Source: Rhodanobacter thiooxydans
Lineage (GTDB): Bacteria > Pseudomonadota > Gammaproteobacteria > Xanthomonadales > Rhodanobacteraceae
Assembly: GCF_021545845.1 (NCBI RefSeq)
Contig: NZ_CP088923.1
Span: forward strand, 3,038,001-3,102,000
Length of the DNA stretch: 64,000 nucleotides
Reading direction: 5' to 3'
Shown here: positions 18,770 to 21,921 of the stretch, piece by piece
Layout: each line of letters begins with the position of its first letter
Numbering within the stretch: position 1 is the stretch's first letter
Program-made: the position numbers and the translations under genes
Notes under the pieces: model-generated
Databases searched by the model: none
What the model saw: only the letters and a program-made list of their open reading frames with translations
Told to the model about the DNA's origin: nothing

Positions 18770-19561
18770 ATGAAACTCCTACGCGCCGCCTTCGTCACCG
18801 CCCTGCTCCTGCTGGCGGGCTGTTCCGCACCGAAGGAGGACGGCCAGACGCTGCGCGTGGCCGCCACCGCGATCCCGCACGCGGAAATCCTCAAGCAGGC
18901 CAAACCGCTGCTGGCCAAGGAAGGTGTAGACCTGCAGGTCAAGGTGTTTGCCGACTACGTGCAGCCGAACACCCAGCTGGCCGAGAAGGCCATCGACCTG
19001 AACTACTTCCAGACCAAGCCCTACCTGGATGCGTTCAACCGCGAGCGCGGCACCCACCTCGTCGTCATCACCGGCGTGCACATCGAGCCGTTCGGCGCGT
19101 ACTCGAAGAAGTACAAGAACATCGACCAGTTGCCCGACGGCGCCAGCGTGACGCTGCCGAACGATCCCAGCAACAACAGCCGCGCGCTGCTGCTGCTGGC
19201 GAAGCACGGCCTGATCACGCTGAAGGACCCGACCGACCAGATGGCCACGTTGAAGGACATCACCGCGAATCCGAAACACCTGAAGTTCCGCGAGCTGGAA
19301 GCGGCGATGCTGCCGCGCACGCTGGACGAGGTCGACCTGGCGCTGATCAACACCAACTACGCGCTGGCCGCCGGGCTGAACCCCACGAAAGACGCGCTGC
19401 TGATCGAGGACAAGGACTCGCCCTACGTGAACTACCTGGTCGGCCGCCCTGACAACCAGAACGACCCGCGCGTGCAGCAGCTGGCCAGGGTGCTGCACAG
19501 CCCCGAGATCAAGGCGTTCATCGAGCAGAAGTACCACGGCGCCGTGCTGCCGGCGTTCTGA
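18770..19561 (+). CDS. metQ: Methionine-binding lipoprotein MetQ (NlpA family)
   Basis: Substrate-binding component of the methionine importer, 263 aa. The lipobox LLLAGC places the acylated Cys near residue 18. The mature domain has family blocks VAATAIPHAEIL, DYVQPNTQLAEKAIDLNYFQTKPYL and VTLPNDPSNNSRALLLLAKHGLI. ALINTNYALAAGL is the methionine-contact region. It completes metNIQ but is set apart from metNI by 222 bases. The start fits the signal peptide; no strong ribosome-binding site is visible. Confidence 0.94.
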   Translation: MKLLRAAFVTALLLLAGCSAPKEDGQTLRVAATAIPHAEILKQAKPLLAKEGVDLQVKVFADYVQPNTQLAEKAIDLNYFQTKPYLDAFNRERGTHLVVITGVHIEPFGAYSKKYKNIDQLPDGASVTLPNDPSNNSRALLLLAKHGLITLKDPTDQMATLKDITANPKHLKFRELEAAMLPRTLDEVDLALINTNYALAAGLNPTKDALLIEDKDSPYVNYLVGRPDNQNDPRVQQLARVLHSPEIKAFIEQKYHGAVLPAF

Positions 19562-19563
19562 CG

Positions 19564-19588
19564 CCCTCCCCTGCAAAGCAGGGGAGGG
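19564..19588. terminator. CCCTCCCCTGC hairpin between metQ and pncB
   Basis: An 11-bp perfect stem (CCCTCCCCTGC and complement) with an AAA loop lies three bases after metQ and ten bases before the convergent pncB stop. It matches the hairpin at 7552, so it is a dispersed palindrome used as a shared terminator. Confidence 0.5.
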
Positions 19589-19597
19589 GCACAGCGA

Positions 19598-20812
19598 TCA
19601 GCCCTGCGACGCGGGAATCTGGAACACCTTCCGCAAATACGCCACGTAGGCCTCGTCCTCGCACATGTTCTTGCCCGGCGAATCGCTCAGCTTGGCCACC
19701 GGCTGGCCGTTGCAGCGGATCATCTTGATCACGATGTTGAGCGGCTCGGGGCCCACGTCGTTGGTGAGGTTGGTGCCCACGCCGAACGAGAGCTGGCAGC
19801 GGCCGCGGAAGTATGCGTACAGCTGCATCACCCGGGGGATGTCCAGGGCGTCGCTGAACACCAGCACCTTGCTGCGCGGGTCGACGCGATTCGCGGCGTA
19901 GTGCGCCAGCACCCGCTCGCCCCAGGCGAACGGGTCGCCGGAGTCGTGGCGGGTGCCGTCGAACAGCTTGCAGAAGTACATGTCGAAGTCGCGCAGGAAC
20001 GCGTCGAGCCCGTAGACGTCCGACAGCGCGATGCCGAGGTCGCCGCGGTACTCCTTCGCCCACGCCTCCAGCGCCGCCACCTGCGAGTCGCGCAGGCGCG
20101 GCCCCAGCGCCTGGTGCGCCTGCAGGTACTCGTGTGCCAGCGTGCCCAGCGGGGTCAGGTTGAGCTTGCGCGCCAGCCACACGTTGCTGGTGCCGGCCAG
20201 TTGCTCGCCCAGCCCGTCGCGCAGCGCGGTCACCGCCTCTTCCTGCCACACCCGCGAGTAGCGCCGGCGCGTGCCGTAGTCGGCGATCTTGCAGCCCTCG
20301 TAGCCGGACGCGTCATGCAGCAGGGCGATCTTCGCCTGCAGTCGCTGGCGCCCCTCGGCAAGGTCGAGGCCGCCGCTGGTCCTGCGGAAGTACACCTCGT
20401 TGACGATCGCCAGCAGCGGCACCTCGAACAGGATGGTGTGCAGCCACGGCCCGCGGATGCGGATCTCGATCTCGCCGTTGGCCGCCGCGGCCGGTGCGAT
20501 CTCCACATACTTCTCGTTGAGCTGGAACAAGCCCAGGAAGTCCACGAAATCGCTCTTGATGAAACGCCACGTGCGCAGGTAGTCGAGCTCGTCCGGCGCG
20601 AAACGCAGCGAACACAACCCCGCCAGTTCGGCGCGGATCTCGTCGATGTACGGCACCAGGTCGATGCCAGGCGTGCGGCACTTGAAGCGGTATTCGACCT
20701 GGGCGGCCGGATACTGGTGCAGCGCCACCTGCATCATCGAGAACTTGTACAGGTCGGTGTCGAGCAGTGATTCGATGATCATCGGCGGCAGGGAGCGGAG
20801 CGGGACGGCCAT
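19598..20812 (-). CDS. pncB: Nicotinate phosphoribosyltransferase
   Basis: NAD salvage enzyme, 404 aa, converting nicotinate and PRPP to nicotinate mononucleotide. The N-terminal block [14 protein letters not shown] is diagnostic, as are FKCRTPG and the active-site segment near [17 protein letters not shown] with the regulatory His region. [23 protein letters not shown] near 270-292 and [10 protein letters not shown] supply the phosphoribosyl-binding elements. The ATG at 20812 is preceded by GAGTGG. An ATG at 20782 is possible, and a longer frame to 20944 is not supported. The small-RNA terminator ends about 30 bases upstream. Confidence 0.95.
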
Positions 20813-20842
20813 TATCCACTCGAACCGCGCGGCTTGTTCCGC

Positions 20843-20885
20843 CCAAAAAGAAACCCCATCAGCCAGGGGAGGGCTGATGGGGTTT
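20843..20885 (-). terminator. Strong intrinsic terminator with C-rich loop
   Basis: A perfect 14-bp stem (AAACCCCATCAGCC and complement, 20851-20885) with a seven-base loop is followed on the minus strand by CTTTTTGGG. It is the 3' end of the predicted small RNA and could also attenuate transcription into pncB. Confidence 0.85.
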
Positions 20886-20968
20886 GTCAGGCGGCATCCA
20901 GGGGAGGAATGCCGGCCCCTCAGTGGTGCGGTGGATTGCGCCACTTCCTGTCGCCGTCACGGCGATAC
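20843..20968 (-). ncRNA. Probable small regulatory RNA with C-rich loops (sX13-like)
   Basis: A gene-free interval between pncB and the divergent cytochrome gene contains a strong minus-strand terminator with no open frame feeding into it. Reading toward it, three stem-loops appear. The first is AGTGG/CCACT (20922-20945). The second is GGCAT/ATGCC (20893-20913), with a UCCCCU apical loop. The third is the 14-bp terminator stem, with loop CUCCCCU. Repeated C-rich loops are the hallmark of sX13-type RNAs of Xanthomonadaceae (about 115 nt), which pair with G-rich motifs at ribosome-binding sites. A weak promoter (TTGAAC at 21003, CACTAA at 20980) would start RNA near 20968. The boundaries, and homology to sX13 itself, are inferred. 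Confidence 0.6.
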
Positions 20969-21082
20969 ACCTGCTTAGTGTGGCCGCCGGCAGGTGAGTT
21001 CAACGTGCACAGCGGCGCTCGTTCAGCTTTCCGACAGGCTTGCCGTCACGAGACGGACGGGACGGTTCGCGCGTACGCCGCC

Positions 21083-21114: not shown

Positions 21115-21921
21115 ATGAAGCTGCTCGCCGTATACCTGCTCGCGCTGTGCCTGGCCCTGCCCGCGGCAGCGGCCGAGCTGAAGGTCGACCTCGGCCATGG
21201 CGTGATGGCCTACAACAGCGAAACCCTGCTCAGGCGCCCCGACGCGCGCACGATCGACGTACCCGCCGACGTGGCATTTCGCCGCACGATGCATTACCGC
21301 GCGGTGCCGCTGGCCGCACTGCTCGACGGCATCGCTCCCGGCGACCACCTGCAGTTCGTGGCTGGCGACGGCTTTGCCGCCGAGATTCCCGCTGCGCTGC
21401 TGCTGAACACGCAAGGCAGCGAAGCCTGGCTGGCGATCGAGGACCCGGCCCGACCGTGGCCCGCGTTGCCTGGCCACGGCCGGGCCGGACCGTTCTACGT
21501 GGTGTGGACGCGCCCGCAGGCTGCCGGCATCGGCCCGGAACAATGGCCGTACCAGCTGGCCAGCATCCGCAAGCTGGCCGACGTGGCCGCGCGCTTCCCG
21601 GCGCTCCTGCCCGATCCCTCGCTGCCGCCGGACAGCGAGGTGCGGCGCGGCTTCGCGGTATTCCAGCGTACCTGCCTCGCCTGCCACACGCTCAACGGTC
21701 AGGGGGATGCGAAGCTCGGCCCGGATCTGAACATCCCGCACAATCCCACCGAGTACCTGCGCGCCGACCTGCTGCGCGCATTCATCCGCGATCCGCAGTC
21801 GCTGCGACGATGGCCGCAGGCGAGGATGCCCGGGTTCGACACGCATGCGCTGTCCGATGCCGACCTCGACGCCGTGCTGGCCTACCTGCGGCACATGGCG
21901 GGACGCAGGCACGGCAGCTGA
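21115..21921 (+). CDS. Exported c-type cytochrome with a molybdopterin-oxidoreductase-like N-terminal domain
   Basis: A 268-aa periplasmic protein. A signal peptide (1-20, AAAAEL) precedes a domain of about 150 residues. Patterns such as YRAVPLAALLDGI, DHLQFVAGDGFAAEIP and GPFYVVWTRP in that domain resemble the SUOX/YedY-like molybdopterin-binding fold, but the molybdenum-ligating Cys of true enzymes is not evident. The C-terminal 90 residues are a class I cytochrome c: CLACH near 192-196, LGPDLN near 207 and a distal Met in ARMPGF near 240. It probably shuttles electrons to an oxidase or reductase. No partner enzyme is adjacent. Confidence 0.75.
   Translation: MKLLAVYLLALCLALPAAAAELKVDLGHGVMAYNSETLLRRPDARTIDVPADVAFRRTMHYRAVPLAALLDGIAPGDHLQFVAGDGFAAEIPAALLLNTQGSEAWLAIEDPARPWPALPGHGRAGPFYVVWTRPQAAGIGPEQWPYQLASIRKLADVAARFPALLPDPSLPPDSEVRRGFAVFQRTCLACHTLNGQGDAKLGPDLNIPHNPTEYLRADLLRAFIRDPQSLRRWPQARMPGFDTHALSDADLDAVLAYLRHMAGRRHGS

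Follow-up and report, generated by a model that had tools for sequence, protein, structure and literature searches.

The small RNA (sRNA) sX13 of Xanthomonas is among the closest described systems to the RNA considered here. According to the accessible part of the sX13 study, sX13 always lies after polA in the species covered, acts without Hfq, and accumulates at 37 °C and at high salt (PMC3771888). The same part of that study reports that the hfq and pilus mRNAs rise in Xanthomonas without sX13, that one TonB-receptor mRNA fell rather than rose, that repression of an hfq reporter by sX13 requires the C-rich and G-rich motifs, and that compensatory mutations failed to restore the control (PMC3771888). 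The word RpoE is absent from that paper, and the terms sX13, sigma factor and RpoE occur together in PMC4652430. MicA and RybB of enterobacteria and VrrA of Vibrio are likewise comparable with the present RNA: the points of likeness are a sigma-E-like promoter (PMC1804206) and candidate targets in the envelope and outer membrane (PMC8103513), and VrrA is about 140 nt long and not stringently dependent on Hfq in the portion available. A survey of the open-licence literature returned no report of the pncB-type sRNA described below, nor of a sigma-E link for sX13, and the words sRNA and small RNA are absent from the accessible part of PMC6085468.

The window (the whole 64-kb stretch of DNA that was analysed) belongs to a Rhodanobacter genome of 4.2 Mb. 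It very probably encodes, on the minus strand at 20844-20968, a regulatory RNA about 125 bases long that is kept in much of the Rhodanobacteraceae, and we regard the existence of this sRNA gene as close to certain. The 5' end (about 20968) was placed from the promoter and the conservation. The downstream neighbour is pncB (nicotinate phosphoribosyltransferase, Pfam NAPRTase; 19598-20782, minus strand), which probably starts at the ATG at 20782. On the other side, a divergent cytochrome c gene begins at 21115, and no minus-strand gene was found between it and the sRNA. An earlier note on this DNA had described a minus-strand terminator that no gene feeds and had proposed an sRNA gene of about 120 nt upstream of pncB, at a locus other than polA. 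These proposals held up: the terminator was recovered, the conserved block was present throughout the genus, the region folds more stably than its shuffles, copies occur at other loci, and the polA site carries a separate copy. Beyond the far end of pncB, a perfect palindrome, CCTCCCCTGC-AAA-GCAGGGGAGG, is located at 19565-19587, after a gene ending at 19561, and longer composites of this repeat type recur at several sites of the genome (loci L004-L009).

The DNA of the sRNA was found once per genome in 45 of 45 Rhodanobacter genomes, with pncB downstream in all of them. Across these genomes, identity was high between about 20968 and 20845 but much lower on both flanks, except for promoter-like blocks just upstream and the partly conserved GGATAATGG before pncB. 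The latter element (20810-20818, between the terminator and pncB) is perhaps pncB's own promoter. RNAalifold predicted 38 base pairs, and 18 of them showed two-sided changes, so the compensatory changes sought by aligning the pncB-upstream region were present genus-wide; they fell in helices 2, 3, 4 and 6. Paired cells amounted to 98.3% in 44 distinct sequences, against only 32-51% in slid controls. None of 500 shuffles reached the observed values on any of five measures, a count that cannot be read as a probability because the 44 aligned sequences share kinship. A small protein was rejected as the product, since no reading frame was open in more than six of the 45 genomes and the distances between anchors varied by up to 3 nt. 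Poor conservation of the stems or loss of the C-rich loops, either of which the earlier note would have counted against an sRNA, did not occur in these 45 genomes.

The RNA is predicted to form four hairpins, with C-rich loops on the last two, towards the 3' end. The 5' hairpin TCGCCGTGAYGGCGA (20951-20965, minus strand) has a small loop, and five of its six pairs were invariant in the 44 distinct sequences. The second hairpin (20922-20945, minus strand) is variable in sequence, with two-sided changes in six of eight pairs. The third hairpin (20886-20921, minus strand) carries the apical loop CUCCCCU at 20906-20900, which is nearly invariant in the genus, and GAGGGG at its base (20916-20921). 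The fourth is a rho-independent terminator (20845-20885, minus strand), consisting of a 14-bp stem (20885-20851) with a 7-nt loop, again CUCCCCU (20871-20865), followed by a T-run. The count of terminator-like sites was two, of which one lies inside the other, against 0.3 expected. The terminator loop CCTCCCCTGG was invariant in the genus while its stem pairs changed on both sides (9 of 14 pairs). Both C-rich loops were predicted to be unpaired when the transcript was trimmed, with means of 0.97 and 1.00 across the 45 genomes, whereas the minimum-energy fold of a longer 136-nt stretch pairs most of the first C-rich loop. The GAGGGG at the base of the third hairpin was invariant in all 45 genomes; it could pair with the RNA's own C-rich loops or with those of sX13, as a switch or a sponge.

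The 136-nt region had a folding z of -4.22, and none of 200 shuffles was equally stable. Strong terminators by themselves lower folding energy, and a terminator with chance folding around it and no functional RNA could account for such a value; the conserved promoter motif, the conserved loops and the two-sided changes in helices 2, 3, 4 and 6 leave this explanation a negligible probability.

The covariance model of sX13 (RF02232) matched the pncB-upstream RNA over its full length with 33.2 bits (E 8.6e-5 in 341 bases). The comparison proposed by the earlier note thereby fell short of the gathering score of 50, and membership of RF02232 was rejected. The best RF02232 match in the genome, at 39.5 bits also below 50, is the copy at polA, and the pncB-upstream RNA ranks second. 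This sX13 orthologue of the genome lies about 136 bp after polA (locus L010, 5771-5883, minus strand), with CAAC-N19-CTAA upstream. Matches three to eight resemble palindromic CTCCCCTGC repeats and were set aside as not being sRNAs of the same kind, and ten other Rfam matches at E up to 10 were all under their own cut-offs. We built a model (R1) from the 45 genus sequences; it scored 142.1 bits at the window's sRNA, which was among its own inputs. In the reverse direction, R1 matched sX13 over the full length in 32 of 32 sources tested, with 46.7 to 16.5 bits, and scored 17.8 bits on the sX13 copy of the window's genome.

The pncB-type sRNA shares with sX13 its length, a structure with C-rich apical loops, a C-rich terminator loop and the presumed G-rich ribosome-binding targets including hfq; it differs in lying upstream of pncB, where the site downstream of polA is held by the other copy, in having two C-rich loops on four hairpins rather than a C-rich loop on each of three stems, and in its sub-gathering score. 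Judged by sequence, it is a second, sX13-like sRNA and not sX13 itself, and perhaps a paralogue. The sX13-like design suggested earlier, with further stem-loops sharing a C-rich motif, was thus retained, with two C-rich loops instead of three, whereas the identification with the genus's sX13 was not. Common descent with sX13 appears likely, and is unproven because the alphaproteobacterial RNA ar14 (RF02344), with CUCCUCCC hairpin loops, also reaches 27.4 bits. That score is below the cut-off of 58.8 for ar14, which belongs to another class, and its likeness is probably a convergent design.

R1 matched at E<=0.01 in 119 of 197 Rhodanobacteraceae genomes and 21 of 26 genera, some weak matches among these overlapping the polA sX13 copy. 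The sRNA was counted in 107 of the 197 genomes (17 of 26 genera), a count that omits genomes whose sole match is weak and unread. A pattern scan of a species-genome collection gave 50 stretches, and R1 matched 43 times in these: 40 matches, in 40 different stretches, scored at least 64 bits, and three scored below 20 bits, two of the three being in Streptomyces and Sporichthya records. One copy (L150), found in a small draft genome, has neither the promoter motif nor clearly C-rich loops.

The positions of these copies bear on whether the RNA is a cis-acting leader whose terminator attenuates pncB on NAD or another signal. Such a leader would fit the 82 of 130 R1 hits, one per genome, that precede pncB in the same orientation. 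The spacer between the sRNA and pncB, however, is poorly conserved in the alignment of the 45 genus genomes and ranges from 60 to 372 nt, with a single outlier of 1459 nt in which an ISL3-type transposase gene (locus L129, 1852-3069) intervenes, and no Rfam family, riboswitches included, reached its gathering threshold in a scan of the window. Moreover, 24 other genomes have copies away from pncB, which indicates a free-standing sRNA gene and not a pncB leader. Six of these genomes score 52-77 bits and eighteen 30-46 bits. The higher group includes Oleiagrimonas, where a recN-like gene stands beside four of seven copies, and one genome of another genus with its copy elsewhere. In the lower group one genome has tandem copies after purH, and the other 17 are of a single genus. 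Thirteen of these 17 all have a phhA-like (biopterin-dependent hydroxylase) gene nearby and none has polA or pncB there; of the remaining four, three have a phhA-like gene and one has three tandem copies. The tandem arrays (loci L124 and L125) comprise two copies and one weak copy (18.8 bits) in one genome, and three in another. Adjacency could not be judged in one genome (G083), because contig ends interrupt the sequence both at its copy and at its pncB. The attenuator, named by the earlier note among the findings that would refute its proposal, is accordingly very improbable. Action in trans through the C-rich loops is likely.

A promoter of the alternative-sigma type, which the earlier note had missed, extends from TTGAAC (21003-20998) to CTAA (20978-20975) on the minus strand, in the form GAAC-N19-CTAA (20975-21003). 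Further upstream, a conserved element CCTGTCG..AAGCTGAAC (21020-21038, minus strand) is perhaps an activator site. The pattern GAAC-N18-20-C[TC]AA was present upstream of the sRNA in 43 of 45 genus copies and 46 of 49 other family copies, and the spacing was exactly 19 bases (GAAC-N19-CYAA) in 85 of the 94. The 49 family copies are the fetched ones and no random sample, and they exclude L106 (a strong copy) and a weak tandem copy; when examined later, L106 had the motif, as did 12 of 13 additional copies, while the thirteenth was truncated at the 5' end. Among 7135 control windows, 19 contained the loose form of the promoter, as did 62 of 9400 shuffles. GAACTY-N17-CTRA occurs once in the 64-kb window, at the sRNA promoter, and a genome scan for the exact GAACTT-N15-17-TCTAA gave 0 sites. 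We consider it likely, from this motif, that an alternative sigma factor drives the sRNA.

The elements of sigma-E promoters are GGAACTTTT and GTCAAA, as given in the accessible part of PMC1804206. The genome's RpoE gene (318.7 bits to TIGR02939) has GAACTC-N15-GTCTGA upstream. The form GAACTY-N15-GTCTGA, with the same GAAC-N19 spacing, precedes rpoE in 16 of 20 Rhodanobacter loci and in 0 of 10 loci from other families; 30 of 41 rpoE loci were inspected, and the loose pattern occurred in 27 of 237 control windows. A like motif was found at 21 of 30 polA-type sX13 copies of the family, polA adjoining 27 of them; these 30 are the best-scoring copies, and two of the nine without the motif had too little flank. 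In contrast to the pncB-type sRNA, none of 29 sX13 copies from a second family (f2) had the motif; this family was taken as Xanthomonadaceae because the highest RF02232 scores occur there.

The same free-standing sRNA with C-rich loops might instead be driven by sigma-32 (RpoH) or another ECF factor, a reading that we hold to be unlikely. The sigma-32 consensus was used in scoring the promoters. Within the genus the two consensuses scored alike (z 1.78 for sigma-32 vs 1.62 for sigma-E), GTTGAA-N15-CCACAC fitting as well as the sigma-E motif, and the polA-type copies often show the sigma-32-like CCCCAT across the -10 region. Sigma-E scored far better, however, at the 16 copies away from pncB (4.06 vs 1.53) and at 28 polA-type copies (4.09 vs 2.87); the sRNA promoter and the site upstream of rpoE agree in spacing, and the fixed letters are GAAC and C[TC]AA, though these were fixed by the search pattern. 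Taken with this scoring, sigma-E (RpoE) would rather probably be the factor concerned and is our first choice.

In the window's genome hfq has AGGGGAG as its ribosome-binding site, to which the loop sequence CUCCCCU is exactly complementary; the site is an in silico counterpart of the G-rich hfq site complementary to sX13. The earlier note had called for a search for GGGG motifs at start sites, and a scan of the genome gave 34 occurrences of AGGGGAG-N3-10-ATG and 7 of the reversed pattern, with sites of the former before hfq, pilin, TonB-receptor and MscL genes. Among the 34 is the sRNA terminator itself, read on the opposite strand. Thirty of the 34 sites were inspected and Pfam scans were run on 18 of the proteins, identifying Hfq, a pilin, MscL, LemA and, in three proteins, TonB-receptor plug domains; for two of the 18 Pfam gave no match, and no convincing gene starts at several of the other sites. 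The three TonB-receptor genes are a raw count among the 30 inspected sites. GGGG was absent from the pncB start in all 45 genus genomes. The global regulatory role that the earlier note proposed would be plausible.

Every family genome searched (107 of 107) had an hfq gene, and its upstream site was inspected in 50, made up of the 30 best matches and a further 20 selected for breadth. Within 25 nt of the hfq start, GGGG was present in all 30 of the first set and in 16 of 20 of the second (46 of 50); the exact AGGGGAG was present in 18 of 30 and 8 of 20 (26 of 50). Among genomes that carry the sRNA, the G-run was present in 40 of 40, one of which qualifies through a 30-bit copy; among those that lack the sRNA, it was present in 6 of 10. 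These genomes are related and not independent. The G-run in those six suggests that it may be maintained by sX13 alone or by ribosome binding. Both the pncB-type sRNA and the hfq GGGG run are missing from L333, L341, L342 and L344, four genomes that belong to two genera. Across 15 genera, no co-variation was seen between the lengths of the sRNA C-run and the hfq G-run (rho 0.21, p 0.45).

From the gene, its structure and conservation, its different loci, the promoter motif and the hfq site, all read in the DNA, we infer transcription, sigma-E dependence, pairing and repression. On balance we favour a stress-induced, independent, trans-acting sRNA that is transcribed by RpoE and blocks G-rich ribosome-binding sites beside the polA sX13. 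An alternative sigma factor, most likely RpoE, would transcribe the sRNA from its own promoter, and the sRNA's own terminator would end transcription ahead of pncB. The RNA would fold into four hairpins, the two at the 3' end exposing CUCCCCU, and this loop would pair with AGGGGAG-like ribosome-binding sites, thereby blocking translation. The likely targets would be hfq, type IV pilin, TonB-dependent receptors and MscL. MicA, RybB and VrrA pair by a single-stranded seed, whereas the pncB-type sRNA would pair by C-rich hairpin loops. It may work beside the sX13 of the polA locus, most family copies of which carry the same kind of promoter.

A wider reading is offered tentatively and with some doubt. 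The Rhodanobacteraceae may possess a repressor arm of the sigma-E response made of two C-rich-loop sRNAs, the polA sX13 and the pncB-type sRNA, which would silence the G-rich sites of receptor, pilus and hfq genes, and the sX13 of the Xanthomonadaceae would have left sigma-E control. If true, sX13, a known regulator of the Xanthomonadaceae, would be a rewired stress sRNA. The finding would add a second gene family to the sX13-type sRNAs with C-rich loops, name an alternative sigma factor as their likely inducer together with testable targets, and connect them to the envelope-stress sRNAs of enterobacteria. It could also explain why a G-rich ribosome-binding site of hfq is retained in most of the Rhodanobacteraceae.
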